A DNA stretch of 36,232 nucleotides from a virus, in the IMG/VR virus record IMGVR_UViG_3300032331_001797, positions 1-36,232 of that record; one strand, given 5' to 3'. Under the pieces are notes generated by a model. That model was given only the letters and a program-made list of their open reading frames with translations, made no database searches and had not been told where the DNA came from. This document shows, piece by piece, positions 4,492-32,620 of this stretch (positions within the stretch are counted from its first letter, which is position 1; every line of letters starts with the position of its first letter). The position numbers and the translations under genes were made by a program.

Positions 4492-4619
4492 GAATCTGCG
4501 GATTCTGTATGACTGGGCATCATCACAACTGTAAAAAAGAAATAAAGTATTATGACAAAATCTGGCTATGCTATTGCCCGATATGTCATAAGCAAGAAGA
4601 TGAAGACAAGAGTGATTGA
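4476..4619 (+). CDS. Small overlapping zinc-ribbon protein, 47 aa
   Basis: A short frame starts at ATG 4476 inside the end of the glycosyltransferase and ends inside the start of the second Mom-like gene. AAGGA lies 7 nt before the ATG. The product has CGFC near residue 8, a His-rich HHHNC, and a C-terminal CYCPICH, enough ligands for one or two zinc sites. It bridges two genes by overlaps on both sides, which supports translational coupling. Function is unknown. Confidence 0.55.
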   Translation: MASEVRICGFCMTGHHHNCKKEIKYYDKIWLCYCPICHKQEDEDKSD

Positions 4620-5244
4620 TTACACAATCAAACCCATAGCGTCAAAAGACGCAAACGAGATGGTGGTTGAGAACCACTATCTCCACCGTCGCGCATCTAC
4701 AATGTTTGCGTTTGGCTTATTCGACGGTGAAGAAATGATTGGTTGCGTTATCTATGGAAAGCCAGCATCACCTAGCGTTTGTGTTGGTGTGTGTGGTCCA
4801 GACGAATCTAGTCAAGTCTTAGAACTAACTCGTCTTTGGATAAAAGATGGAACTCCAAAGAACACGGAGTCTTATCTCATAGGTCGAACCTTGAGACTGC
4901 TACCTAAAGAAAAAGATATAGTAGTTTCTTATGCTGAAATTCAAGCAGGTCATATTGGAATTGTCTATCAAGCAACCAACTGGATTTACACAGGTGTGTC
5001 TGACCGCCATGTTGAGTGGAGACTTGATGGTCTAACTGGTTCGCACTCTCGCCATATTTTTGATGAGCACGGTGGAGTGAATGGTGCAAAAGCATACTAC
5101 GGTGATAGACTTGAAAGACACGAGCGACCCCGAAAGCATCGCTATGTGTATTTCAACTCTTCTTCAAAACAGAGGAAGAAAGAACTGCTGGATAAGTTGA
5201 GATACAAAATCCAGCCTTATCCGAAAAGAGAAACAACAATATGA
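4600..5244 (+). CDS. Mom-like DNA-modification acyltransferase B
   Basis: The start is taken at ATG 4600, giving 214 aa. The earlier in-frame ATG at 4552 adds residues that fall within the overlapping zinc-ribbon frame and outside the family pattern. Mom-type features are the N-terminal ENHYLHRR (residues 24-31), LTRLWIKDGTPKNTES (near 76-91), VVSYAEIQAGH (near 108-118) and YQATNWIYTG (near 123-132). In phage Mu, Mom converts adenine in DNA to a carbamoylmethylated form that resists restriction. The same chemistry is probable here but not shown. The 3' end overlaps the next start by 4 bases (ATGA). Confidence 0.8.
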   Translation: MKTRVIDYTIKPIASKDANEMVVENHYLHRRASTMFAFGLFDGEEMIGCVIYGKPASPSVCVGVCGPDESSQVLELTRLWIKDGTPKNTESYLIGRTLRLLPKEKDIVVSYAEIQAGHIGIVYQATNWIYTGVSDRHVEWRLDGLTGSHSRHIFDEHGGVNGAKAYYGDRLERHERPRKHRYVYFNSSSKQRKKELLDKLRYKIQPYPKRETTI

Positions 5245-5923: not shown

Positions 5924-6844
5924 ATGTCAGACGAACTTGAGAGAGACCCCTTCTCAAAACCTGAGTTGGAATTACCAGATGTCCAAATCGACACCCCTAT
6001 CAACCTCAGACCTGACCTCAGCCTCCACGGAATCGAAGAGACAGACCGTGGCGTATGTCTAGACACATTTGAAAACAGGCAAGCATTGCGTCGAGCGAAG
6101 TTCAACTGGCTTCCTGTCTACGCCCTTAATGGCGTTCCTACTGGTTTGATTCAAGCACTGTCTCCTGAGATGCAATCTCAACAGCGTCTACTTTCTCTTG
6201 ACGAAAAGGTAGCCATCTTGGTCGAACCTGATGATAAAAATTCTGATTATATAACTGGCTATAACCTAATAGCCGAGTCAGCAGCAGACTACATCGCTCC
6301 GCCTTGGGTACTGGGCGCGACACGCGCTTGGGCTAAGCAACAGAACTCGGGCGATTTAGCGCATGGAAAAAAGGAACTCCCTCTTCCTAAACGCTGTAAA
6401 GCAATCAAAGATGATGGCATCAGATGTCAACTCTGGTCTGGCGGGCGTGGAGCAGATGACGGTCTATGTCGCGTTCACTTGGGCTCACTAAGGAATAAAC
6501 CTACCGACTCAGTGGAGCGTGCTCGTTCCCGTTTGACACAAGCCACCCCCTCCGCCGTTGATGTTCTCGAACAACTTATGGACAACGCAGAGTCCGAACC
6601 CGTCAAACTCAAAGCGGCCACCGAAATCCTAGACCGTGCTGGTATTCGTGCTGGTATCGACATCAATACCGATGTCACTCTCGATGTCCGCCCTGCTGCC
6701 TCAATTATTGCTGAGCGTCTACAACGGTTAGCCACAAACGCAATTGAAGCGCAGCGGCGTTTCCAAGCGACCCAAGAGCCAGAGACAGTTATAGTAGAAG
6801 AACAAGTCGAAGACGCAGAGGTAGTAGAAGATGACGCTAAGTGA
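5924..6844 (+). CDS. Terminase small-subunit-like protein with zinc finger
   Basis: This 306-aa protein has a central Cys/His cluster (C158, C168, C182, H185) of the RCKA...RC...C..H type, common in phage small terminase or packaging-associated DNA-binding proteins. It is followed by a helical region in which a short repeat (VLEQLMDNAESEPVKLKAA and onward, near 210-235) resembles the DNA-binding helices of actinophage small terminases. The C-terminal ~30 residues are very acidic. It lies 26 kb upstream of TerL, which is unusual, so the role is inferred from pattern alone. AGAGGA precedes the start by 8 bases. The 3' end overlaps the next gene by 14 bases. Confidence 0.6.
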   Translation: MSDELERDPFSKPELELPDVQIDTPINLRPDLSLHGIEETDRGVCLDTFENRQALRRAKFNWLPVYALNGVPTGLIQALSPEMQSQQRLLSLDEKVAILVEPDDKNSDYITGYNLIAESAADYIAPPWVLGATRAWAKQQNSGDLAHGKKELPLPKRCKAIKDDGIRCQLWSGGRGADDGLCRVHLGSLRNKPTDSVERARSRLTQATPSAVDVLEQLMDNAESEPVKLKAATEILDRAGIRAGIDINTDVTLDVRPAASIIAERLQRLATNAIEAQRRFQATQEPETVIVEEQVEDAEVVEDDAK

Positions 6845-7040: not shown

Positions 7041-7785
7041 ACTCCGCGAGCGCTTCATAAATAAAGCATTAGAGTACACGGGATACGAATCACCCAACGG
7101 CATGGAAAATATCTTTGGCCAGCGTCGGGGTCTAAACGGCAAGCCTTGGAACGGTATCTTTATTGATGTCGTCGCTGGAGAAGCGGGTATCCGTTTACCC
7201 GTAGCACACACGGTGTCGACGGTAGCCTTGGGGTTCTACCTGGGTAGGGGTTTTTTCCATGTAAGACCACGGCGAGGAGATATAGTCTTCCTTCAAACCT
7301 CAACGGCAAGCGAGTTCGGCTCGCCACATATAGGTATAGTAACGGATACCTCACGGCACGCCACTGACGGTATTATACAAACGGTAGAGGGTATGACGGC
7401 AAGCCAAAATCAACGGCAAGCGAAAACCCCAACGGGTGTCTATGTGCGTACCCGTCATCAGTCTGAGGTTATTGGGTATGGTCGCCCAAAATATGTAACG
7501 GCAAGCCAATTAGTAGGAAACCTAGACGCCCCAACGGTGAGCACTGCACAAGTGCGTAAAGGTATGAAGCATAAGAGCATCATTCTGGTACAACTTGCGT
7601 TGACGCAAGTGACTGGGATTACTCGTTTCCAAAGAGGGCACTTTGATACAAAGACCATACTTGCGTACTCAAAGTTCCAAAGAGACATTGGATATGTTGG
7701 CATCTCTGCATCTGGTGATGCTGACTTCAATTCATTGAAACTGTTGGGCGAACTTACTGGGTTCTTCAACGCAAAACAGACATAG
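7009..7785 (+). CDS. Endolysin-like protein: CHAP-type domain lacking the usual Cys, plus peptidoglycan-binding domain
   Basis: ATG 7009 is chosen because AGGA lies about 9 nt upstream; ATG 6985 is the alternative. The 258-aa product has a CHAP-like domain (residues ~12-170): PWNGIF at 46-51 aligns with the PWC(A/G)xF catalytic motif, and SPHIGIV at 105-111 carries the expected His. The Cys position is Asn48, so classical activity is doubtful. Residues ~190-258 (VQLAL...FDTKT...FQ...GDADFNSL..LG) match the PG_binding_1 pattern. The first 530 bases of the gene are saturated with ACGG words and the last 230 bases are almost free of them. A wall-binding structural or inactivated hydrolase role is possible. 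Confidence 0.65.
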   Translation: MTKPKQPTASELRERFINKALEYTGYESPNGMENIFGQRRGLNGKPWNGIFIDVVAGEAGIRLPVAHTVSTVALGFYLGRGFFHVRPRRGDIVFLQTSTASEFGSPHIGIVTDTSRHATDGIIQTVEGMTASQNQRQAKTPTGVYVRTRHQSEVIGYGRPKYVTASQLVGNLDAPTVSTAQVRKGMKHKSIILVQLALTQVTGITRFQRGHFDTKTILAYSKFQRDIGYVGISASGDADFNSLKLLGELTGFFNAKQT

Positions 7786-7817
7786 CACGAGGCAGCGACA
7801 TTTATTTTTGACGCATA

Positions 7818-8001
7818 ATTCCTTATGTTATTCCGGGTTCCCAGGGTCCCAGGGAAGTTCGGGAAATCGGGAAATGTAACAAATTCATAACGGCTTATGC
7901 TTTTAACTTGACAAACGGCAAAAACGACTTTAGACTATGTCCCATAGTCTAAAGCGAAAAACTGATACATTTCCCCCGGATTCCCAGTAAACATAAGGAA
8001 T
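7818..8001. repeat. Nested inverted repeats over 184 bp
   Basis: Four arms pair in nested order: 7818-7829 with 7990-8001 (12 bp), 7832-7837 with 7974-7979 (6 bp), 7869-7878 with 7965-7974 (10 bp) and 7929-7939 with 7943-7953 (11 bp, 3-base loop). All pairs are perfect; the second and third share base 7974, so one of those two pairs must give way at that point. The centres are not identical, so a folded RNA would have bulges. A promoter lies inside the left half. Confidence 0.6.
7908..7936 (+). promoter_or_regulatory. Sigma-70-type promoter with operator-like palindrome
   Basis: TTGACA at 7908-7913 and TAGACT at 7931-7936 are separated by 17 bases. An 11-bp perfect inverted repeat (7929-7953) overlaps the -10 box and the likely start site, so it could be an operator or a 5' hairpin. 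The first gene downstream is at 8209. Confidence 0.6.
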
Positions 8002-8125
8002 CGACGGCACGGCTAGAATCCTCAAAATTTTTATAATAAACTCTTATGCTTTAGTGCTGCGAACGGAACCCGCACGAACGCGCGGAAACGGCGAGCGCTT
8101 TCCTCAACGGCGAGCGGGTTCCCTC

Positions 8126-8147
8126 TTTTTCCATGTGCATGGAAAAA
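8126..8147. repeat. Back-to-back pair of CCATG elements
   Basis: TTTTTCCATG at 8126-8135 and CATGGAAAAA at 8138-8147 form a perfect 10-bp palindrome with a 2-base centre. It is the tightest version of the dispersed element described at 8747. Confidence 0.65.
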
Positions 8148-8208
8148 CGGCTAGCCTGGTGAACGGCTTGCGTTATAGACTAAGAACGGCAAGCGATGAC
8201 GGCGTGCC

Positions 8209-8478
8209 ATGTCGAAGAGAAAGATAACGGATATGGATTTTGAGGACTGGTTGAAGATTGGGTATGACAACGGGTGGGTTGGTGCCCCCGTATGTGACAC
8301 ACATGACGGCGTGCCAATGACGGCAAGCGAAGAGAAAGAATTTGAAGAGGGAGACCCGTGTATCAACATACTGCGTCTGTACTCAACGGTAGAGGAAAAG
8401 ATGCAGGTAGAAGAGAACCACTCTCCATCTGTTTGGCGTGCAAGTAACCGTGGACTTGGTATCTCAGAACTGGAATAA
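8209..8478 (+). CDS. Hypothetical 89-aa protein of a phage-typical family
   Basis: The product contains GAPVCDTHDGVPMTASE (residues ~25-41) and EGDPCINILRLY (~47-58), a pairing I associate with short hypothetical proteins of actinophages. Function is unknown. There is no visible ribosome site; the ATG directly follows an ACGGCGTGCC word, and two more copies lie within the gene. Promoter 7908-7936 is the nearest upstream. Confidence 0.65.
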   Translation: MSKRKITDMDFEDWLKIGYDNGWVGAPVCDTHDGVPMTASEEKEFEEGDPCINILRLYSTVEEKMQVEENHSPSVWRASNRGLGISELE

Positions 8479-8746: not shown

Positions 8747-8811
8747 ACCTGGGCTGCTCTTTTTTCCATGCAGAGATGTTGCATGGAAAAAGCGCAGACC
8801 CGGGTTTTTTG
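8747..8811. repeat. Forward plus reverse element pair, terminator-like
   Basis: A forward copy (8747-8771: ACCTGGGCTGC then TTTTTTCCATGC) and a reverse copy (8781-8805: GCATGGAAAAA then ACCCGGGT) form an imperfect 59-bp palindrome with no gene inside. The TTTTTT after 8805 makes it a plausible terminator for the 8209-8730 genes. Confidence 0.65.
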
Positions 8812-8869
8812 CTTCTGACGCGATTCTCTTTTTGCTTATGTTCTTCCGGGATGGGCTTCTCGAAGATTT

Positions 8870-11035: not shown

Positions 11036-12916
11036 ATGAGCCACCACACACTTAACTCTCGACCAGTAGGTCGCGTAGATTACGCTTGGCTAGGCGTGAA
11101 CGCTAGCGTTGGCAAACTTGTCAACCAGTGGTCACTGCGCCAAGACCTAGTAGTCGCGCTCGCCGAAGTCACCACCATTGGCGCACCTGCTTGTTTCAAT
11201 CCTGCGAGCGCAGAGATTGAAGTATCAATCCCTAAGGCTTTTGGTGCTGGCATCACTCCAGACCAAGTTGGCGAAATGACTCTTCGTAAGAATCAACTCA
11301 AGCACGCTGTTGGTGCTGGTGCGATTTACCACGAGGCACTTCACGCTCGCGTATCGCGCTGGTCATTAGAGCAAGCACACAAAGACCTAAGCGCTCGCGA
11401 ACTCCGATTCATCAACGCGATGGAAGAGTCTCGCATCGAATACTGGGGCTGTGTCTTCCTACCAAAGAATCGTTCACTGCTACGCGCTTGTGCGATTGAA
11501 ATTGTTATGGATGAACTTGACGAGCAAGCCAAGAATGTTTCCAAGGTTGACGCTGCTGCGTTCCTTGCTCTACTAACTTTGGCTCGCGTTGACGCTGGCG
11601 TTCTTGACAAGCGCGACATCGTTGACTCAGTTCAGGAAATCATCTCTGAAGTTTTGAGCGACGAAGTTGTTGCTAAGTTGCGCGAAGTGTGGAAAGACTT
11701 CCAGACTCACGACGACCACGCTAACGCTCTTCCACTCTACGACCTAACTCGCGAGTTCCTAAAGATTCTCGACGAGCGCAAGGAAGAGACTGGCGAAGAC
11801 GAGGGTCAAGAGCCAGAGGGCGGTTGTGAAAAGCCGGGTGGCGAGGGTGGAGAGCCGGGAACTGGAACTGGTAAGGGTCAACCTACACCAGAGCAGATTG
11901 AAGAGTTCAAGGACTTCATCGAAAAAGTCAAAGAGGCAGTCAAGGAAAACCAAGAGGCAGTCAATGTTTCTAACCAGACTGAACTCGACGACGAAATCGA
12001 AACTGAAGAGCGCAAGGAAGAAGTCGAGGCTCACAACGAGGCTAAGCAAATGCGCGACGAGCGCAAGGACTTGGCTGACAAGGTGTTCAACCAAGACGAT
12101 GCTATTGGTTCTCATGTTTCTGGTGAGAAGACTCGCTCTCGTCTGATTGACACTCGTCTTCCAACTGGCGAAGAACTTGCTAGCGCGAACAAGATTGCTA
12201 ACGCTCTGCGTAAAGCAAAATACCGCGAGCGCTCTCAGACTCGTATCGCCAGCGTTGTGCCTCCGGGTCGTCTGCGCTCACGCGCTTTCATTCAGGGTCA
12301 AGCACAAAAGGCTCGTGGCATCAACGCACCAGTCGAGGCTTGGCGCACAACCAAGCGCAAGACCACTGAAGACCCAACTCTAAATGTTGGAATCATCGTG
12401 GACATCTCTGGTTCGATGAAGTCAGCAATGACTCCAATGGCTATCACTGCTTGGGTTATGAGCGAGGCTGTTCGCCGAGTTCAGGGCAAGGCTGCGATGG
12501 TCTACTGTGGTCAAGATGTATTCGCCACTCTAAAGCCGGGAAAGCGTCTGAGCAAGGTTTCGACCTACTCCGCGTCTGACTCAACTGAAGAGTTTGACAA
12601 GGCGTTCAAGGCTCTTGATGGTGCGATGAACCTGACTCACGCTGACGGTGCGAAGTTGCTTGTGGTCGTCTCTGACGGACACTACCGCTCTGACCAGAAA
12701 GACCACGCTCGCAAGTTGCTACGCGACGCTGACAAGAACGGTGTCGCAATCTTGTGGCTAACTTTCGATGGCAAGGTAAGCGAGCCATCGGACTTGCTCA
12801 AGGGAACTGCGGGCAAGGTTGTTGACCTGAAGTCAACGGAGTCGCCAACCACCGCGTCTGCCATCATCGGAGACGCAGCGGCTAAGGCTCTATCGGCTAT
12901 CGGCTCGCGGGTCTAA
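11036..12916 (+). CDS. VWA protein with HExxH metallopeptidase-like motif, MoxR partner
   Basis: ATG 11036 is used because GAAAGG precedes it by about 10 nt and the promoter lies just upstream; a longer frame starts at 10931. The 626-aa product has HEALH at 99-103 with a Glu pair in NAMEESRIE (~127-135), the pattern of zinc metallopeptidase-like domains. The middle (~245-390) is highly acidic and low-complexity. A C-terminal VWA domain follows, with a complete MIDAS start DISGSM at 456-461. The order resembles CobT/DUF2201-type partners of MoxR ATPases. A metal-dependent complex-remodelling or proteolytic role is inferred. The gene ends in an ACGGC word cluster. Confidence 0.8.
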   Translation: MSHHTLNSRPVGRVDYAWLGVNASVGKLVNQWSLRQDLVVALAEVTTIGAPACFNPASAEIEVSIPKAFGAGITPDQVGEMTLRKNQLKHAVGAGAIYHEALHARVSRWSLEQAHKDLSARELRFINAMEESRIEYWGCVFLPKNRSLLRACAIEIVMDELDEQAKNVSKVDAAAFLALLTLARVDAGVLDKRDIVDSVQEIISEVLSDEVVAKLREVWKDFQTHDDHANALPLYDLTREFLKILDERKEETGEDEGQEPEGGCEKPGGEGGEPGTGTGKGQPTPEQIEEFKDFIEKVKEAVKENQEAVNVSNQTELDDEIETEERKEEVEAHNEAKQMRDERKDLADKVFNQDDAIGSHVSGEKTRSRLIDTRLPTGEELASANKIANALRKAKYRERSQTRIASVVPPGRLRSRAFIQGQAQKARGINAPVEAWRTTKRKTTEDPTLNVGIIVDISGSMKSAMTPMAITAWVMSEAVRRVQGKAAMVYCGQDVFATLKPGKRLSKVSTYSASDSTEEFDKAFKALDGAMNLTHADGAKLLVVVSDGHYRSDQKDHARKLLRDADKNGVAILWLTFDGKVSEPSDLLKGTAGKVVDLKSTESPTTASAIIGDAAAKALSAIGSRV

Positions 12917-13061
12917 CGGCTCGCGTAGGGGGTGGGCTTGCGTAAACGGCAAGCCTACCTCTATAATAGAAACACGGTAAGCCTAACGGCTCGCCTAAGA
13001 GACAAAGAGACGGCGTGCGTAAACGGCACGCCATAGAGAGATAAAGGAGATTGACGGTGGG
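12914..13061 (+). repeat. ACGGC-NN-GC(C/G) word cluster 2
   Basis: Seven ACGG words fill the 140-bp gap between the VWA gene and the next gene, at about 12917, 12946, 12973, 12985, 13011, 13024 and 13055. All are on the + strand, and no other promoter or gene is seen in the gap. Confidence 0.75.
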
Positions 13062-13478: not shown

Positions 13479-13508
13479 CCCCTCAGCAATGAGGGGTTTA
13501 TTTTTTTC
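13479..13508 (+). terminator. Rho-independent terminator
   Basis: A 7-bp stem (13479-13485 with 13490-13496) with a 4-base loop is followed by TTTATTTTTTT. Confidence 0.85.
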
Positions 13509-13518
13509 CACGCGAGGC

Positions 13519-13572
13519 GCATGGAAAAAGATAGAACCTGTGAAAATAGGGTTGCCTATTTTTCCATGCAGG
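13519..13572. repeat. Reverse then forward dispersed element
   Basis: A reverse copy (GCATGGAAAAAG at 13519-13530 onward to 13540) is followed by a forward copy at 13549-13572 (GGGTTGCC then TATTTTTCCATGC). The reverse copy lies straight after a terminator. The forward copy precedes the next promoter. Confidence 0.6.
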
Positions 13573-15889: not shown

Positions 15890-16183
15890 ATGAATCTAGC
15901 AATCGCTCTTGGCGACTCGATTCGCGTTATGCGAATGGAAAAAAGTATGACCCTGCGTGACCTAAGCGCTAAGTCACACATCTCGCTGGGCTACCTTTCC
16001 GAAGTAGAACGAGGCACGAAAGAAGTGTCCTCCGTTGTTTTGGATTGTGTTGCTCAGGGGCTTGATGTTCCTCTTTATGTAATCATTGAAGAGGCTTCAC
16101 GCAAGATGCGCGACTCCGAAGAGTTCAACTACATCACACGAAGTGTTGAACTTGACCACATGGAAAAAGTTCTAGTCTGGTAA
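15890..16183 (+). CDS. ClgR/XRE-type HTH transcription regulator
   Basis: The 97-aa protein has a canonical XRE-family helix-turn-helix at residues ~21-41 and the stretch SLGYLSEVERGTKEVSS at 32-48, typical of actinobacterial ClgR. It lacks the long C-terminal extension of host ClgR, but its size is within range. ClgR normally activates clp protease and stress genes through GTTCGC-N5-GCG boxes. Boxes of that form occur at 8870, 13639, 16337 and 17576 in this window. The 16337 box lies downstream of its own operon, so it may control the next unit. Host clp genes are another possible target. Confidence 0.8.
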   Translation: MNLAIALGDSIRVMRMEKSMTLRDLSAKSHISLGYLSEVERGTKEVSSVVLDCVAQGLDVPLYVIIEEASRKMRDSEEFNYITRSVELDHMEKVLVW

Positions 16184-16891: not shown

Positions 16892-17085
16892 TTGACGGGT
16901 GCGGTGTCCCCAAACACACCGCCTCGTCAACCTGCTGGTTATGAGTGATAACAAGTAACCGCTACGGTAGCCCGTAGCGACCAGCACGGCGAGTCGTATC
17001 CGATTCAATCCCCCCATTGCCTAACGGATACGGCTCGCCTCCATAAGCACCCCCCAACTTACCTAATGTGGTAGGTCGGGGGGTT
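16892..17085 (+). terminator. Four tandem hairpins ending in a terminator
   Basis: Stem 1 at 16892-16930 pairs a TTGACG arm with CGTCAA and GCGGTGT with ACACCGC. Stem 2 at 16960-16979 is a perfect 8-bp stem with a TAGC loop. Stem 3 pairs 16988-17002 with 17025-17039 (15 bp, one wobble) and contains ACGGC words. Stem 4 at 17050-17083 pairs CCCCCC with GGGGGG and ends in TTCTTAC. It may be a structured non-coding RNA or stacked terminators. Confidence 0.5.
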
Positions 17086-17232
17086 CTTACTTTAACGGCT
17101 AGCCCTTGACGGACAAACGGCAAGCGCAAACGGCAAGCGTGTAATAGATAAATCTTTATGCCCTAACGGATAAGCCCCGAAGAGATTGACGGGTCGTGTT
17201 TATAGGAGAGGTGGGTAAATGCCAACGGTAAG
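16986..17232 (+). repeat. ACGGC-NN-GC(C/G) word cluster 3
   Basis: About ten ACGG words on the + strand run from 16986 to 17229, some of them inside stem 3. No gene is seen in this stretch. Confidence 0.7.
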
Positions 17233-17669
17233 CATCTGAGGAGAAATGGAAGAGAGGAAAAGCGTAAGGAGATGCAGAGGGAAAAATAGGGAGGTAGGTC
17301 TTTCCATGCAGATGCGAAGAGGAGAAAGACGAGATGCAGGAAGCGAAGGCGCATGGGGGAAAAGCATAAGAGATAAAGGAAAAGATGCAGAGGAACAAAT
17401 CACATTGCGAGGAAGAAAGTTATTCGCGTCTGAGGCAAAGTTTTTCGCAAGATGCGTGCATGGAAAAACATGGGACTTGACTTTTTTGGATTTCTGTTTT
17501 TTGGATTTCTTTGATTTCTTTTTTCGAGTCGAACTTTCTTATGTTTTATTTTTGTCATCTGAGTCATCAAATCTTGTTCGCTCAGAGCAAACAAATAAAT
17601 CTAATGTATTAGGAAGAAAATGTCTGTCCACTAGGTTATTATTTATGTAGGCAATGGGAGGTGATTATT
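17233..17669. other. Repeat-rich non-coding stretch
   Basis: The sequence is purine-rich on the left and T-rich on the right. It carries CTGAGG words (17236, 17430), GATGCAG words, one AAAAGCATAAG (17363), a degraded forward CCATGC element at 17299 and a reverse element at 17457. The 134-codon frame at 17246-17650 has odd, low-complexity composition and is not accepted as a gene. A ClgR-like box lies at 17576. Confidence 0.5.
17576..17612 (+). promoter_or_regulatory. ClgR-like box with relic promoter block
   Basis: GTTCGC-TCAGA-GCA at 17576-17589 is one mismatch from the ClgR box. The following TTAGGAAGAAAATGTC word matches the conserved block in the ClgR-box promoters, but no TTGACA is present. 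It lies upstream of 17670-17816. Confidence 0.4.
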
Positions 17670-18167: not shown

Positions 18168-18236
18168 GTGGGTTGCCAATCTTTCCATGCGCTTCCCTTT
18201 TAGCCTCCGGGGCATGGAAAAACACACCACCCCGGT
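18168..18236. repeat. Forward and reverse dispersed elements without a gene between
   Basis: The forward copy at 18168-18190 (GTGGGTTGCC then CTTTCCATGC) and the reverse copy at 18212-18236 (GCATGGAAAAA then CCACCCCGG) face each other across 21 bases. It follows a terminator and precedes a promoter. Confidence 0.6.
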
Positions 18237-19283: not shown

Positions 19284-19535
19284 CGGCACGGATAAGCCCC
19301 CGCTGGATAACGGCGGGGGTTTTCTTTTACCCTGACGGCTGGCACGGAACACGGTTCGCTTGTTCTGACGGCTGGGCTTGTATAGACAGACGGCTAAGGG
19401 TTGACGGCTGGCTTGTATAAGCAAACGGCAAGTCCTAACGGCTTGGGTTTTATCGGTATGTAGGTAAGCACACCCAAGCCCAACGGTGAGTGTTTTTTGA
19501 GTGGTATGTATGTAGGCGTGGAAACCATTGACGGT
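19284..19535 (+). repeat. ACGGC-NN-GC(C/G) word cluster 4
   Basis: About twelve ACGG words, often ACGGCTGGC or ACGGCTTGG, on the + strand between the zinc-ribbon gene and the non-coding stretch. Two copies flank or overlap the terminator hairpin at 19297. Confidence 0.7.
19297..19330 (+). terminator. Rho-independent terminator
   Basis: A perfect 7-bp GC stem (19297-19303 with 19313-19319) is followed by TTTTCTTTT. Confidence 0.8.
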
Positions 19536-20260
19536 GACTCTTTTTGGAAGGAATCGTAGATGGAAGCAAATGCAGTGGAAGGTGCGAAAAGCATAAGAAG
19601 GCTCATCAAAAGCATAAGAGGCTGTGAAGAAGCGAAAAAGAGGGAAGGTTTGATGAGTTCAGAAGAAAAAGTGTGGGAAATCAAATCAGGTTGGCTGTTT
19701 TTCCTTGTTTTGCAGAAAGAAAGAGTTTTCCTGCTGAGGAAGACGCATGGAAAATTTAAGGACTTGACTTTTATGCACGCATCAGGATTTCTAAAACTTA
19801 TGAACTTCTGAGGAAAAAGTCTTTCTTCTGAGGCAATGTGCGTTGTAAAACGCGTTGAAGGTAGGCTTTGCAGAGCCTTTCTGGGTCGAAAACCTGAAGA
19901 GTGGGCTATTCCTCGCTAAAACTTGACTTTCTGAGGAAAATGTGTGGGAACTTTTTTCTGGAAAATGCAGAGGAAGCAAACAGGTGGCCAGTTTTTCCAT
20001 GCGCCTTATGTTTTATTTATTCAGTTTGGGACCTCAGGCATCAGAACTTTCTTGTTTTTCTGACGAGGAAGCAGGTTCGCGAAGGCTCATCTGCAAATAA
20101 AAACATAAAGACTATGTAATAACGCAACCAGGTCATCACGCTTCTCTGCATTTGTCAAGTTTTTTTGCAGGTTTGTCCCAATGTGTATAGTTTTTCGCGA
20201 TTTCTTTACAGATTCCTCATCAGGTCGAACAAGTGTTCGAGAAGCAGGACTCCTCTGCTG
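19536..20260. other. Non-coding accessory stretch with many short repeats
   Basis: No gene is accepted here. It holds CTGAGG(A/C)A words (19734, 19808, 19828, 19931), AAAAGCATAAG (19587, 19606), a reverse CATGGAAAA element (19746) and a forward element at 19981-20002. A TCGAAC-GTTCGA palindrome lies at 20225-20240. The composition resembles 17233-17669. Confidence 0.5.
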
Positions 20261-20284
20261 ACCGGGTGGCCGATTTTTCCATGC
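20261..20284 (+). repeat. Forward dispersed element at left end of PNK unit
   Basis: ACCGGGTGGCC then GATTTTTCCATGC. The ACCGGGT variant is matched by ACCCGGT in the reverse copy at 22180-22203, downstream of the same transcription unit. Confidence 0.65.
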
Positions 20285-20339: not shown

Positions 20340-20771
20340 ATGAAAAAACTATTAGTGCTTCAGGGTCTCCCGGCTTCAGGCAAATCGACTCATGCAAAGG
20401 AACTCCTCGCGCTCGCCGAGGAAGGAACAGCCTTGCGTATCAACAATGACGAACTGAGTCTGATGTTGCATGGAAGAACCTTTACCCCCGGCGATTCAAA
20501 GGCTTCTCAGTTGTTAGGAAAGATTCGGGCTGAGATTATTCGCAATGCGTTCAGGCTGGGGTATCAGTTGGTCATCGTTGATAACACCAATCTTTCTCCG
20601 AAGACTTTCAAATCTTTACAGCGTATCGCCGAAGATTGCGAAGCCGAGTTTGAGTGCGACAATTCTTTCTTGGCTGTTCCGATTGAAGAGTGTCTTCGCC
20701 GAAACGCAATGCGAGAGAATCCCGTGCCAGAAAAAGTTATTTGGGAAATGGCAAAACTAATTCGGGAATAA
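20340..20771 (+). CDS. Polynucleotide kinase-type P-loop kinase
   Basis: The 143-aa protein has P-loop GLPASGKST at 9-17, a VDNTNLS motif near 80-86 and the C-terminal R-rich lid RRNAMRENPVPE near 120-131. This is the kinase half of T4 Pnk and related 5'-end kinases; no phosphatase domain is attached. It could add 5'-phosphate to RNA or DNA ends during repair. The promoter lies 6 bases from the ATG, so the mRNA is probably leaderless. The earlier in-frame start at 20292 lies upstream of the promoter. A cyclic-phosphate-processing domain is encoded at 23101. Confidence 0.85.
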   Translation: MKKLLVLQGLPASGKSTHAKELLALAEEGTALRINNDELSLMLHGRTFTPGDSKASQLLGKIRAEIIRNAFRLGYQLVIVDNTNLSPKTFKSLQRIAEDCEAEFECDNSFLAVPIEECLRRNAMRENPVPEKVIWEMAKLIRE

Positions 20772-22179: not shown

Positions 22180-22203
22180 GCATGGAAAAACATGGGACCC
22201 GGT
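22180..22203 (-). repeat. Reverse dispersed element at right end of PNK unit
   Basis: GCATGGAAAAACATG then GGACCCGGT. It follows the unit's terminator and shares the ACCCGGT variant with the forward copy at 20261. Confidence 0.65.
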
Positions 22204-22331
22204 ATTTTGGAAGCCTGGGGCCTGGGTGAAAAGCATAAGCATAAGTTTTAGCACTCTCCGCCTTCGAGTGCTAACGCCGAAGATAACAAGAAGATAACAA
22301 CGAAGATAACGAAAAAGTTATGAAAATAAAC

Positions 22332-23006: not shown

Positions 23007-23031
23007 ACCTGGGCGGCTAATTTTTCCATGC
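23007..23031 (+). repeat. Forward dispersed element at left end of cREC unit
   Basis: ACCTGGGCGGC then TAATTTTTCCATGC. The reverse copy is at 23490, beyond the gene and its terminator. Confidence 0.65.
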
Positions 23032-23489: not shown

Positions 23490-23511
23490 GCATGGAAGAT
23501 TCGGCCACCCG
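23490..23511 (-). repeat. Reverse dispersed element at right end of cREC unit
   Basis: GCATGGAAGA then TTCGGCCACCCG, in the orientation opposite to the forward copy at 23007. Confidence 0.6.
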
Positions 23512-23670
23512 TTTTTCTGATGCATGAGTCTGCTTCTTATGCTTTTTGGGAGGAACGCCGATGCCCAGAAAAAGAAATAAAAAAACTTTTTGATTTGGGA
23601 AGAAAAAGTATTGACTATGTGTTATAGTAGTTATGTAGGAAAACTACAAAACGACAAAAGGAGAAAAACA

Positions 23671-24840: not shown

Positions 24841-24866
24841 GACCCTGGCGGCTAGTTTTTCCATGC
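24841..24866 (+). repeat. Forward dispersed element
   Basis: ACCCTGGCGGC then TAGTTTTTCCATGC, 38 bases before the start codon at 24904. No reverse partner was found before the next forward copy at 27429. Confidence 0.6.
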
Positions 24867-24903: not shown

Positions 24904-25194
24904 ATGCCTGAACTCAACACTGCATCTCCTCTCAAACTGCTTGATGCTGAAGAAAACAGGATTTCCTTTCTTTATTTGCTTGAGGGAGGGGACTTTGATA
25001 GACGAGTCGTGCTTGTATCCTCTGTATCAACACCGAACTACGAGGAAACATCTGTGTTCCTCTGCTCAGATTGGGAGGGAGTCGAGGCTGATTGGGGTAA
25101 TGCCTTAGCGAAGATTTATTATGTGGATACCGAAGACGCACTAAATAAAATTGGATACACAACAAAAGTCAAACTTGACACGGAAAAACAATAG
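24904..25194 (+). CDS. Hypothetical 96-aa protein, probably leaderless
   Basis: There is no ribosome site. TATTGT at 24892-24897 ends 6 bases before ATG 24904, the same geometry as the PNK, HDAC-like and TerL genes, although no good -35 is visible. The product is mixed alpha/beta and acidic, with one Cys. Function is unknown. Confidence 0.55.
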   Translation: MPELNTASPLKLLDAEENRISFLYLLEGGDFDRRVVLVSSVSTPNYEETSVFLCSDWEGVEADWGNALAKIYYVDTEDALNKIGYTTKVKLDTEKQ

Positions 25195-25238
25195 ACCCTA
25201 TTATTGAGTCAGAAGACAGAACGACGAAAGGAACACCG

Positions 25239-25739
25239 ATGGGCACAACTGTTCATGGACTGAAGCCAAAGCACCAAGTGGGCGAAGAGTTTGGTAGAAA
25301 TGTGTGGGGCTGGAAGCCTTTGATGGATTACATCTCAGAAAAACACCCTCGCTTCGAGAAGTTGGTTGATAAAAACCGACTAACTGAACTGCAAGCAAGC
25401 AAGATTGCTGACGCATTGTTCGATGATTTGGCATCTGGGGTTGCAAAAACATACACCGATGGGTTTGAGAAGCACCAAGCAAACTTAGAAGAAGTCAAAT
25501 GTGGCATCTGCGATGGGACTGGCATCAGAACTGATGAAGTAGGCATGGAAAAAGGGATGACCGACTTATCATTAGACCCCCGCCTCGCTCAGCAACTGGG
25601 AAGAAAAAGAGGCTGGTGCAATGGGTGCTTTGGAAAAGGTACGCACAAAACTACCGAAAGTGCTTATTACTTGGAACTGGTTGATTTACAAGAGTTCGCC
25701 GAGTTCCTGAAGAACTGTGGTGGGGCAAAGATTTCCTAA
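25239..25739 (+). CDS. DnaJ-type zinc-finger-like protein, 166 aa, paralog of 25831
   Basis: GAAAGGA lies upstream of ATG 25239. The protein starts GTTVHGLKPKHQVGEEFGRNVWGWKPL and ends with CGICDGTGIRTDEVG and CNGCFGKG, two CxxCxGxG knuckles like those of DnaJ. The same layout is seen in the next gene and in many phage hypotheticals (MGMDVxGKNP family). The knuckles are the zinc-binding parts; the J-domain is absent. Function is unknown. Confidence 0.75.
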   Translation: MGTTVHGLKPKHQVGEEFGRNVWGWKPLMDYISEKHPRFEKLVDKNRLTELQASKIADALFDDLASGVAKTYTDGFEKHQANLEEVKCGICDGTGIRTDEVGMEKGMTDLSLDPRLAQQLGRKRGWCNGCFGKGTHKTTESAYYLELVDLQEFAEFLKNCGGAKIS

Positions 25740-27384: not shown

Positions 27385-27413
27385 TCCCCGTCAGAAATGG
27401 CGGGGATTTTTCT
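27385..27413 (+). terminator. Rho-independent terminator
   Basis: A 6-bp GC stem (27385-27390 with 27401-27406) followed by TTTTTCTT. Confidence 0.75.
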
Positions 27414-27428
27414 TATGCAATAGAAAGA

Positions 27429-27452
27429 CCAGGGTGGCCAGTTTTTCCATTC
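27429..27452 (+). repeat. Forward dispersed element, CATTCAC variant
   Basis: AGGGTGGCC then AGTTTTTCCATTCAC. The CATTCAC variant is found again, inverted, at 27874 after the next gene. Confidence 0.7.
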
Positions 27453-27503
27453 ACCTGAGTCTTCAGATGTAGGATTATTTTGCTCAGCCGATTGAGAAAA
27501 GAG

Positions 27504-27540
27504 AACTCCTCGCCGTCTTTACGACACGGGGAGTTTTCTA
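27504..27540 (+). terminator. Terminator-like hairpin
   Basis: Stem 27504-27509 with 27530-27535, plus an inner CCGT/ACGG pairing, followed by TTTCTA. Confidence 0.55.
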
Positions 27541-27541
27541 C

Positions 27542-27570
27542 TTGACAATGTCGGTGGGTGGGAGTACTAT
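27542..27570 (+). promoter_or_regulatory. Promoter with GACA/TGTC dyad
   Basis: TTGACA at 27542-27547 followed by ATGTC, and TACTAT at 27565-27570 (17-base spacer). It drives 27604. Confidence 0.7.
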
Positions 27571-27603
27571 TTAGGTATCAGACAAAACTACGAAAGGAAT
27601 CTG

Positions 27604-27813
27604 ATGAAAACAATGATTGTATGTACTGGTTTGGGCTTAGCCTGTGTTGGCGTTGCCTTTGCTGTCAAGGCTGGGCTGATTGTGCTTACCGCTACTCAAC
27701 TGTTCGCTCTCGCTGGCTCAATGATGTTGATTGTTGGTGGAGTTGCTGGGATTGTCGAAATCTACAACAACCGACCAATGCGTTTTCGCAAGACCCGCCG
27801 AGGCAGGAACTAA
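27604..27813 (+). CDS. Small two-helix membrane protein, 69 aa
   Basis: GAAAGGA lies 6 nt before the ATG. Hydrophobic segments are near residues 3-27 and 31-53, with a basic tail RFRKTRRGRN. Together these fit a two-pass inner-membrane protein with a cytoplasmic tail. It is the only gene of a unit bounded by a matched inverted pair of dispersed elements (27429 and 27874), so it is a good candidate moron. Confidence 0.7.
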   Translation: MKTMIVCTGLGLACVGVAFAVKAGLIVLTATQLFALAGSMMLIVGGVAGIVEIYNNRPMRFRKTRRGRN

Positions 27814-27824
27814 CTAAAAGATTG

Positions 27825-27865
27825 GCAGATGCATGAGGGAAACCTCGCGTCTGCTGATTTTTTTG
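27825..27865 (+). terminator. Strong rho-independent terminator
   Basis: Stem 27825-27832 with 27847-27854 plus GAGG/CCTC (27835-27838 with 27843-27846), GAAA loop, then a T-run. Confidence 0.9.
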
Positions 27866-27873
27866 CTGTGCGA

Positions 27874-27898
27874 GTGAATGGAAAAATCAGCCGCCGGG
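27874..27898 (-). repeat. Reverse dispersed element, GTGAATG variant
   Basis: GTGAATGGAAAAA is the exact complement of the forward copy's TTTTTCCATTCAC at 27429-27452, followed by GCCGCCGGG. Confidence 0.7.
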
Positions 27899-27988: not shown

Positions 27989-28825
27989 ATGACCACTCCA
28001 GTAATTATTGACACAGAGATTGCCGAGACTACCAAAGCCATCGAGGAAAAGGTATTCCGCCTATCAAGTCTTCGACGCACCATAACTTCTTACGGGACTA
28101 TGTCCTACTACGCTTCTCGCGTCGAGGAGAAAGAGATTGAAATCACCAAGGTCGAGACTGCGCTCGCGGAACTCAAGGAAAAACTGGCAACCCTAAATGG
28201 TTTCTACACAGGTTGGTCCCGTGCCTTCCTTGTTCGCAACAGCAATGGGCACATTCACAAGAGCCGTTCATGTACAACCTGCTTCGACAGCACCAACTAT
28301 GTGTGGCTTACCGAGATGTCAGGTCGCGATGAACTTGAGATTGCGTACCTCGCTGGTGAAAAGGCTTGTACTATTTGCTACGCACACGCACCATCTGCTT
28401 ACTTCCTACGCGAGTGTGGGCTGGAAGACCCAGAGGTAGTTGAGGCTCGTCAAATCCGTCAGGCTCGTAAAGCCGAGATTGAGGCAAAGCGTCAGAAGAC
28501 TGGTATCTGGAATCCAGATGGAACTCCACTAAAGGTATTCGAGTATGGTTTCCAGACCTACAAGAGTGAAATCAAAGCAGAACGAACTGCTCAGTCCGTT
28601 GCGGTCAACCTGCTTGTTGGGGTTCAGAGTATGAGCCGACAGCCACGAGAGATTGAGCGTAGCAATGAGTCAATCGAGACCATCTTGATTGCCTTGGCTC
28701 ACAAGCGAGGAACTTCAGTCGAGGAACAGCGTGCTTTGATTCAAATCAAAGCCGATGCTCAAATCAAAATCAACAAGCGTCAGCAAGAGAAATGGCTCGC
28801 CGAACATCCAGAGTACGCTAAGTAG
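27989..28825 (+). CDS. Zinc-binding protein of a phage-typical family, 278 aa
   Basis: GAGGACAG is upstream of ATG 27989. The N-terminal ~70 residues are coiled-coil-like. Near 82-138 the sequence reads FLVRNSNGHIHKSRSCTTCFDST...WL.E.SG...E..Y..GEKACTICY: two CxxC pairs plus His, typical of short actinophage proteins with the NSNGH...H....C..C motif. A Lys/Glu/Arg-rich helical C-terminus follows. Role unknown. It is the first gene of a four-gene unit. Confidence 0.7.
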   Translation: MTTPVIIDTEIAETTKAIEEKVFRLSSLRRTITSYGTMSYYASRVEEKEIEITKVETALAELKEKLATLNGFYTGWSRAFLVRNSNGHIHKSRSCTTCFDSTNYVWLTEMSGRDELEIAYLAGEKACTICYAHAPSAYFLRECGLEDPEVVEARQIRQARKAEIEAKRQKTGIWNPDGTPLKVFEYGFQTYKSEIKAERTAQSVAVNLLVGVQSMSRQPREIERSNESIETILIALAHKRGTSVEEQRALIQIKADAQIKINKRQQEKWLAEHPEYAK

Positions 28826-28903
28826 GAGCACTTCATCGCAAGATGGGGTGCATCTACCTGGGTTATAATAATTTCCATACACTACGCCACCGAAAGGAAC
28901 AAA

Positions 28904-29996: not shown

Positions 29997-30022
29997 CTGG
30001 GCTGCCACTTTTTCTATGCAAC
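29997..30022 (+). repeat. Forward dispersed element at left end of HDAC-like unit, CTATGCAA variant
   Basis: CCTGGGCTGCC then ACTTTTTCTATGCAA. The CTATGCAA variant recurs, inverted, at 31104-31115 after the gene. Confidence 0.7.
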
Positions 30023-30083: not shown

Positions 30084-31052
30084 ATGTCTAAGAAACTCAC
30101 AGTCGCGTACAGCGACGACTACCTGAACTGGCAACTTGGTTCGGGCGATGGCTCGCACCCTACAAAGCCTATACGGGCAAAGATTGCTACTGGACATCTT
30201 ATAGACGAACTTGGCTTGGACAATGTGGAAATCATTGAACCTGAGTTCAGAGATGGGGACCGAGAGAAGATTGAATCTGTTCACGATACCGAGTATGTTG
30301 CTCAGGTGATAGACGATGGTATGTCTTGGGACTGGTCTGGCGAGAAGCCTGAGATGGGGCATACCGCTGCTCAGATGTTTTCTGGCACAGTACGCCTAGT
30401 TGAGAAGATGATTGCTGGTGAAACTCAGGTGGGCTTCAACCCTCAGGGCGCAAAGCATCACGCACAGTTTGACCACAGCGAAGGCTTCTGCGTATTCAAT
30501 GACCACGCTTGGGCTGCCAAAGAGTTTGTGAAGAACGGACTCAAGGTTGTCTACATTGACTGGGATGTCAATGCGGGCGATGGAGTTCAGAATCTGCTTG
30601 CGGATACTGACATACCTACCTTTAGTATCCACGGGCACGGAATTTACCCTATTCACTCGAACACTTGGTCGAGGGGGGCTGGAGACAAAGAGAACTATGT
30701 CTACGCTGATGAAGAGCATCACTGGTACAACTACTGCTTACAGCGAGAACAAGGCGACGAGGCATTCAAGTGGGCTATTGACTTGATTGCTGAAAAGGTT
30801 GCCGAGTACAAACCTGATGTAATTCTGCTTGCTACTGGGGCAGATGGACACGAGGGCGAACACTGGGGTCTGAAGTACACATACGAGGGCTACCACTATG
30901 CCGCTGGTGTGATTGCGGACCTAGCCAACAAGTATTCTGATGGTCGTGTGCTCATTGGTGGTGCTGGTGGCTACCAACCATACACTCATACACCGAGAGT
31001 GTGGGCGAATGTGGTCAAAGACATCTATCAACAGACTCAAAAATCTGAGTAA
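30084..31052 (+). CDS. Histone-deacetylase-fold amidohydrolase with substituted zinc ligand
   Basis: ATG 30084 has GAAAGGA ~6 nt upstream and gives 322 aa. ATG 30060, in the same frame, sits at a leaderless position and would add eight residues. The HDAC layout is clear: GAKHHA with H125 and H126, IDWDVNAGDG at 158-167, GADGHEGEHWG from 252, and GGAGGY ending Y297. In HDAC8 the zinc ligands are D178, H180 and D267. Here these are D161, N163 and D254, so the His ligand is Asn. The enzyme may still bind metal, may use another substrate, or may be inactive. Acetylpolyamine or acetyl-lysine are the usual substrates of this fold. Confidence 0.8.
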   Translation: MSKKLTVAYSDDYLNWQLGSGDGSHPTKPIRAKIATGHLIDELGLDNVEIIEPEFRDGDREKIESVHDTEYVAQVIDDGMSWDWSGEKPEMGHTAAQMFSGTVRLVEKMIAGETQVGFNPQGAKHHAQFDHSEGFCVFNDHAWAAKEFVKNGLKVVYIDWDVNAGDGVQNLLADTDIPTFSIHGHGIYPIHSNTWSRGAGDKENYVYADEEHHWYNYCLQREQGDEAFKWAIDLIAEKVAEYKPDVILLATGADGHEGEHWGLKYTYEGYHYAAGVIADLANKYSDGRVLIGGAGGYQPYTHTPRVWANVVKDIYQQTQKSE

Positions 31053-31103: not shown

Positions 31104-31130
31104 TTGCATAGAAAATCAGATAACCCAGGC
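31104..31130 (-). repeat. Reverse dispersed element at right end of HDAC-like unit
   Basis: TTGCATAGAAAA at 31104-31115 and CCCAGG at 31124-31129 match, inverted, the outer parts of the forward copy at 29997-30022. Confidence 0.7.
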
Positions 31131-31510: not shown

Positions 31511-31566
31511 CCTGGGTGGCCAGTTTTTCTATGCAAAGTTGACTTTTTATAGAAAGCATGATGATT
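31511..31566 (+). repeat. Forward dispersed element followed by promoter-like sequence
   Basis: CCTGGGTGGCC then AGTTTTTCTATGCAA at 31511-31536, then TTGACT at 31539-31544 with an unclear -10 near 31562. Confidence 0.5.
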
Positions 31567-31671: not shown

Positions 31672-32220
31672 ATGGATAAAATCAAGAAAGCCAATCAGTC
31701 ATTACCGACTGAAGTGGTCAGATTGTTCAATCAGATTATTGACCCAACCGATAGGGACAACCTGATTCGTAAATTACACAACGCTGGCTGGACACAGAGC
31801 AGTATTGCTCGTTCAATTGACCTGACCCGTGAGCGTGTGAGACAGATTTGTGTTATGGAGAATGACCCTATTGGGCAGACCGAGTTCACAATACCGATGC
31901 CACCATCACACGAGATAAAGGCAAAGCGTGAGTTCATTGAGCCTGACTCAAAGTCATTGGCTCGCTTGCTGGAACTACAGCCTATGGCTAAGCAAGTTCG
32001 TTCGCACGCTACTCGTTTCAGAGCAGAGGCAGAGGAATACACAGCCCTCATTGCTAAACTCCACGAGGTAGATGGTGTAACGCTATACCGACTGGCTCTT
32101 CGCTTGGGTGTAACTCATTCAGCGTTGAGATTTAGACTGGCTCGCTATGGATACAAGTTATCTGACAGCGGGGTTAGCAAGGTCTATCAACCCATCAACC
32201 CTAAGAACAGAGTTCGCTAG
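31672..32220 (+). CDS. DNA-binding protein with sigma-region-4-like and second HTH
   Basis: The 182-aa protein has an N-terminal helix-turn-helix (AGWTQSSIARSIDLTRERVRQI, near 38-60) whose RERVRQI ending is the signature of sigma-70 region 4. A second HTH-like segment (VTLYRLALRLGVTHSALRFRLARYGYK) is near residue 136. The architecture (two HTHs joined by a long linker) is similar to the protein at 35524. It may be a transcription regulator or a sigma-like anti-host factor; it lacks sigma region 2, so it is not a complete sigma factor. Confidence 0.7.
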   Translation: MDKIKKANQSLPTEVVRLFNQIIDPTDRDNLIRKLHNAGWTQSSIARSIDLTRERVRQICVMENDPIGQTEFTIPMPPSHEIKAKREFIEPDSKSLARLLELQPMAKQVRSHATRFRAEAEEYTALIAKLHEVDGVTLYRLALRLGVTHSALRFRLARYGYKLSDSGVSKVYQPINPKNRVR

Positions 32221-32587: not shown

Positions 32588-32620
32588 ACCTGGGTTGCCG
32601 CTCTTTCCATACCCTATAAT
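32588..32620 (+). promoter_or_regulatory. Forward element with -10 box of the TerL gene
   Basis: A forward dispersed element (CACCTGGGTTGCC then GCTCTTTCCATACC) ends near 32613 and is followed at once by TATAAT at 32615-32620. ATG 32627 begins 6 bases after this box. No good -35 is present, so the element itself may help recruit polymerase. Confidence 0.55.

Follow-up and report, generated by a model that had tools for sequence, protein, structure and literature searches.

The closest known kinds of site to the repeat described here are the stoperators of Cluster A mycobacteriophages and the SPBRE operators of the Bacillus phage SPbeta. Cluster A phages such as L5 and Bxb1 are temperate, with a known immunity repressor that binds the stoperators and blocks elongation. 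They carry 20-30 of these dispersed asymmetric sites across each genome, most of them oriented alike with respect to transcription, and the consensus is similar but distinct in each phage clade, drifting with the repressor (PMC6550527). SPBRE was first seen in silico as an element repeated in intergenic and promoter regions and was later shown to be the site of a regulator, with a 15-bp motif, approximately 10 binding peaks and, as its binder, MrpR (YopR), a protein with a tyrosine-recombinase fold (PMC10516654).

No description of the present repeat was found in the literature searched. The window, which is the whole stretch of 36,232 nucleotides that was analysed, is a phage fragment whose VWA-domain protein has a 42% match to Actinomycetia phage DSL-LC01. 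The site is bipartite and asymmetric and approximately 23 nt long; its weight matrix, derived from copies in the window and in relatives, gives YRGGT-N6-TTTTTCCATGC. At a score of at least 14 the window holds 34 copies (Table 1), 17 on the + strand and 17 on the - strand, among genes of the + strand, and at a score of 12 it holds 36, where Markov sequence would give 0.4. As with stoperators, at least 20-30 dispersed asymmetric sites are found (34 in the window, 27 in a 135-kb relative) and the consensus drifts between related phages; unlike stoperators, the sites are split equally between the orientations, fill a single region and face inward when they are close neighbours. The resemblance to SPBRE is that a repeated element lies between phage genes and at their promoters, but a tyrosine-recombinase-like repressor was not found by sequence in the same phage, with no match to PF00589 (tyrosine integrase or MrpR-like recombinase) in nine records, a search that a degenerate fold could escape; three relatives carry a serine recombinase domain. 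On present evidence the sites would work in the manner of stoperators or SPBRE, with membership of neither group claimed. The reading preferred here, at a probability of roughly 0.6, is that they form a dispersed operator-like family of about 34 copies in an actinobacterial phage of about 135 kb, bound by a putative phage-encoded regulator, and that a matched pair of CATTC variants around one of the genes needs no pairing mechanism.

Table 1. Coordinates of the site copies in the window and of the features around the gene with matched flanks
Feature	Position	Strand	Remark
Site copy	6361..6383	-	within gene
Site copy	7240..7262	+	within gene
Site copy	8114..8136	+	inward pair with 8147
Site copy	8137..8159	-	inward pair with 8126
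Site copy	8749..8771	+	inward pair with 8791
Site copy	8781..8803	-	inward pair with 8761
Weak site copy	13491..13513	+	overlaps terminator T-run
Site copy	13519..13541	-	
Site copy	13547..13569	+	
Site copy, also CATTC	15933..15955	-	within HTH gene
Weak site copy	16158..16180	-	same HTH gene as 15933..15955 copy
Site copy	17287..17309	+	
Site copy	17458..17480	-	
Site copy	18168..18190	+	inward pair with 18222
Site copy	18212..18234	-	inward pair with 18180
Weak site copy	19686..19708	+	
Site copy	19745..19767	-	
Site copy	19980..20002	+	
Site copy	20262..20284	+	complementarity to 27886 above that of 27442
Weak site copy	20468..20490	-	within gene
Site copy	22180..22202	-	
Site copy	23009..23031	+	left of cREC gene
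Site copy	23490..23512	-	right of cREC gene; lost with gene in L091
Site copy	24844..24866	+	CATGC in window, CATTC in L091 and L092
Weak site copy	25178..25200	-	overlaps gene 25239 promoter TTGACA-18-TATTAT
Site copy	25543..25565	-	within gene 25239
Preceding gene's terminator, just before left copy	27385..27413	+	sequence CCCCGTCAGAAATGGCGGGGATTTTT
Left flank copy, CATTCAC variant	27430..27454	+	core start 27442; PWM score 33.5; aligned in relatives
Promoter of enclosed gene, TTGACA-17-TACTAT	27542..27570	+	
Small membrane-protein-like gene, 69 aa, between both copies	27604..27815	+	
Terminator of enclosed gene, just before right copy	27823..27869	+	
Right flank copy, CATTCAC variant	27874..27898	-	core start 27886; PWM score 22.7; aligned in relatives
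Weak site copy	28173..28195	-	within gene 27989
Site copy	28858..28880	+	contains TATAAT
Site copy, CTATGC variant	29997..30019	+	followed by TTGACT promoter
Site copy, CTATGC variant	31106..31128	-	
Site copy, CTATGC variant	31512..31534	+	upstream of sigma70_r4-like HTH gene 31672
Site copy	32590..32612	+	followed directly by TATAAT and terminase gene

The family fills the accessory-gene region from the endolysin to the terminase, and its placement there is mostly between transcription units, immediately 3' of terminators. With the genes and three terminators assigned by eye, 26 of the 34 copies are intergenic although intergenic sequence makes up only 24% of the region (p=2e-10), and nine of 13 terminators are followed by a copy at a distance of no more than 35 nt, where 1.6 would be expected. 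The copies at 25188, 28870 and 32602 overlap or abut promoters, those within genes show no clear synonymous constraint, except weakly at 7252, and site strength does not fall off significantly along the region. It is the placement at terminators and promoters, the promoter overlaps, the independence of strand and the set-wide drift that favour a putative regulator or insulator site, and the short conserved site is probably the docking site of a putative phage regulator. A phage-encoded DNA-binding protein would bind the sites and, once bound, may repress or insulate many small transcription units, a role proposed because most sites come after one unit's terminator and before the promoter that follows, and a few overlap promoters.

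What counts against a simple operator is the arrangement of close neighbours, as 25 of the 27 pairs less than 120 nt apart face inward, many of them homologous loci in different phages, which an operator does not require. Such pairs have the potential to form hairpins, so it has to be asked whether facing copies act in the transcript as a terminator, a processing or a stability element, with arms selected to pair. T-runs do end some of the hairpins (8761/8791) and the A-rich outer flanks are like those of bidirectional terminators, but many copies are single and in either orientation, an ordinary terminator already precedes the copies, and no Rfam match was found. Arms are moreover no more complementary within a pair than across different pairs, the duplex dG being -26.1 in near pairs against -23.6 for arms from different pairs (p=0.28), and -25.7 against -24.7 in the gene-flanking pairs (p=0.65), whose complementarity is not above that with other copies. 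A function in RNA is thus considered unlikely.

In the same low range we place the view that a putative protein binds the sites for segregation, condensation, replication or packaging and not for control of transcription. The equal use of both orientations and the limitation to one region of the genome would suit such a role, and the spacings of inward pairs, close to 10 and 20 nt, hint that the protein may bind cooperatively; the close association with terminators and promoters speaks against it, and the helical phasing, for which gaps of 9-11 and 19-22 are suggestive, falls short of significance when homologous loci are counted once (p=0.15). Inward pairs approximately 20 nt apart in some relatives (L013 12718-12761, L014 18549-18590, L016 17323-17364 and similar) carry TCCATGC-N3-GCATGGA in the loop as a third half-site.

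The operator-like family is conserved well beyond the window. The 135-kb relative G001 has all of its 27 copies within a single 28-kb region (70.9-99.3 kb) and none in the other ~107 kb, and 13 of 14 copies are kept when the window is compared with L091. Against the L010/L093 genome, which is approximately 76-80% identical to the window and so 20-24% diverged, 27 of 33 window copies have the same place and strand; the core is much better conserved than its flanks, with GG and TTTCC ~100% identical, the six-base spacer 64% and the flanks 46%, the exception being core position +9, where CATGC and CATTC differ and which is only 48% identical. Ten sites change at +9 from CATGC in the window to CATTC in that genome, whilst both flank sites at 27442 and 27886 change in the opposite direction. 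More distant relatives have another consensus throughout the set, AAGGGT...TTTTCCATGT in L020, AAAGGGT...TTTTCCACGC in L022 and AAAGGGGT...TTTTCC[AG]AGCG in L032, where the sites are likewise limited to one region of the parts read. A change across the whole set is as would be expected from a coevolving putative binding protein. The family would be a clear multi-copy regulatory-site system in large actinobacterial phages, with a consensus that can be traced as it changes across related genomes, and as the L010/L093 set mixes CATGC and CATTC it becomes possible to test how a regulator and its dozens of sites coevolve. In more distant relatives (L023, L035, L042, L078, L084, L098 and others) this gene neighbourhood holds other motifs in high copy number, several of them promoter-like (ACCTGATATAAT, TTCCCCTAAAAAATATT, AAAGATGTTATA).

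The conservation of place and strand also bears on whether the copies mark the limits of mobile gene cassettes, as ends or as boundary repeats, with both flanks of a gene arriving together. Genes are enclosed by inward-facing copies at 23021/23500 and 27442/27886, but 27 of 33 positions kept at this divergence are not what a mobile unit would leave, and the loss of the gene at 23101-23436 in L091 has breakpoints that do not coincide with the copies, the left one lying apart from its copy and the right one ~45 nt past its copy. The 69-aa gene, which has no Pfam match, has a homologue without either flank copy in L096 and with only the left copy in L095. Cassette ends are consequently very improbable, and inverted-repeat mobile elements as a class were rejected, presence/absence polymorphism with breakpoints at the repeats not being found.

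It was the two flanks of this 69-aa gene that had drawn attention in an earlier note, made from the sequence, which read them as matched CATTCAC variants private to one gene. Both flank sequences are present where they were read, with GTGAATGGAAAAA occurring exactly twice in the window, as a 13-mer at 27442-27454 (-) and 27874-27886 (+) where shuffled sequence gives an expectation of 0.00, and the pair was recovered independently as inverted repeat I22, with a complementarity of 82% over 22 nt. The claim of a variant absent from every other copy is correct in the window for CATTCAC, which is limited to the two flanks, but not for CATTC, which has a third full copy at 15943 on the - strand, within an HTH gene, reading TTTTTCCATTC. 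The same place is variable in other copies too, the neighbours at 30009, 31116 and 31524 all having CTATGC. Beyond the window the variant ceases to be private, as approximately half of all copies in the L010/L093 genome are CATTC, unpaired ones included, and CATTCAC is found there at 11283 (-) and 11313 (+), two copies that do not face each other, which is the kind of non-paired occurrence in relatives that the note had named as evidence against its proposal.

The note had offered joint origin, gene conversion or selection for pairing as the cause of the match. In aligned relatives both flanks are CATTCAC in L090, L091 and L092 and both are CATGC in L093, thus the two arms are inherited together and differ together, and joint origin holds in this weak sense, whilst the stronger readings fail. 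When the check that the note proposed was run, flank pairs had 17.3 of 30 identities, as did pairings with other copies (17.3; n=20, p=0.93), and the 27886 copy is 86% complementary to the distant copy at 20274 against 82% to its own partner. Coupling of both flanks of each gene by gene conversion or joint selection does find a trace at +9, where gene-flanking pairs share the base in 11 of 12 cases with 7.0 expected (p=0.007, the pairs not all being independent), and the window and L093 differ in both flanks at once. Yet whole-arm similarity is not raised, discordant inward pairs of CATGC with CATTC occur (L010 15996/16036, L093 6166/6653), and outward neighbours are concordant as well, in 15 of 19 with 11.4 expected (p=0.03); several such concordance tests were run, they share homologous loci, and their values are in part inflated by the tendency of strong copies towards the consensus. 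Tandem neighbours are not concordant at +9 above chance. One state extends across whole blocks, the G and T states of the L010/L093 genome falling into 8 runs where 17 are expected (p=0.0008), and coupling gene by gene is therefore regarded as rather improbable.

The sharing of +9 among neighbours is regional, and there is nothing unusual in the matched variants as such. A special pairing is not needed because the flank copies differ from the rest only at +9, which switches freely between related phages. Under the operator-like reading, +9 would tolerate G or T; it drifts between related phages, neighbouring copies tend toward one state, and the CATTC pair was inherited as a pair in four related phages. 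We conclude that local sharing of a tolerated and inherited variant explains the matched flanks, and that a small extra coupling of flank pairs may remain; a weak local effect does show in the gene-flanking pairs, whose +9 concordance is the highest.

As to the putative binder, none was found. Most relatives keep two HTH proteins, one ClgR-like and of the HTH_3 family (15890-16183), the other sigma70_r4-like (31672-32220). The latter was rejected as the specific binder as it occurs also in phages without the site, and the former has better candidate operators of its own, which are GTTCGCTNNNAGCGAAC-like. These palindromes are found in the window at 8867, 13639, 16337, 17576 and 32223, with six matches at up to three mismatches against 1.6 expected, have exact relatives in several loci, and resemble the ClgR operator motif. 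A tentative extension of the operator-like reading, much less probable than it, is that in a phage with no recognised tyrosine integrase dispersed, inward-facing and orientation-independent sites of a putative protein would serve to insulate dozens of small accessory transcription units from one another or to act as roadblocks between them, the sequence of the sites changing across the whole set between related phages as the protein evolves.

Further repeated elements occur in the same region. Upstream of gene 22401 there is a perfect TTAGCACTC-N9-GAGTGCTAA inverted repeat (22248-22274), kept with different spacers in L091 (1624-1650) and L093 (5403-5429) and present in 103 stretches in an exact scan of viral contigs, and its layout is the same as that of the CIRCE operator, the site of the heat-shock repressor HrcA. 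Repeats of ACGGCNNGC are found at 7136-8328, 12916-13031, 17030-17138 and 19335-19412, some within a coding gene, with 27 copies against 2.5 expected, 25 of the 27 on the + strand, and related forms occur in L014, L016, L020 and L032. The motif AAAGCATAAG occurs about ten times in the window (for example at 7884, 8040, 17361, 19582, 19608 and 22230), often near terminators and the main site. Amongst the genes, the phage carries a Mom-family DNA modification protein at 4552-5244 (PF25680, E=1e-45) and a protein with a histone-deacetylase domain at 30084-31052 (PF00850, E=3e-46).
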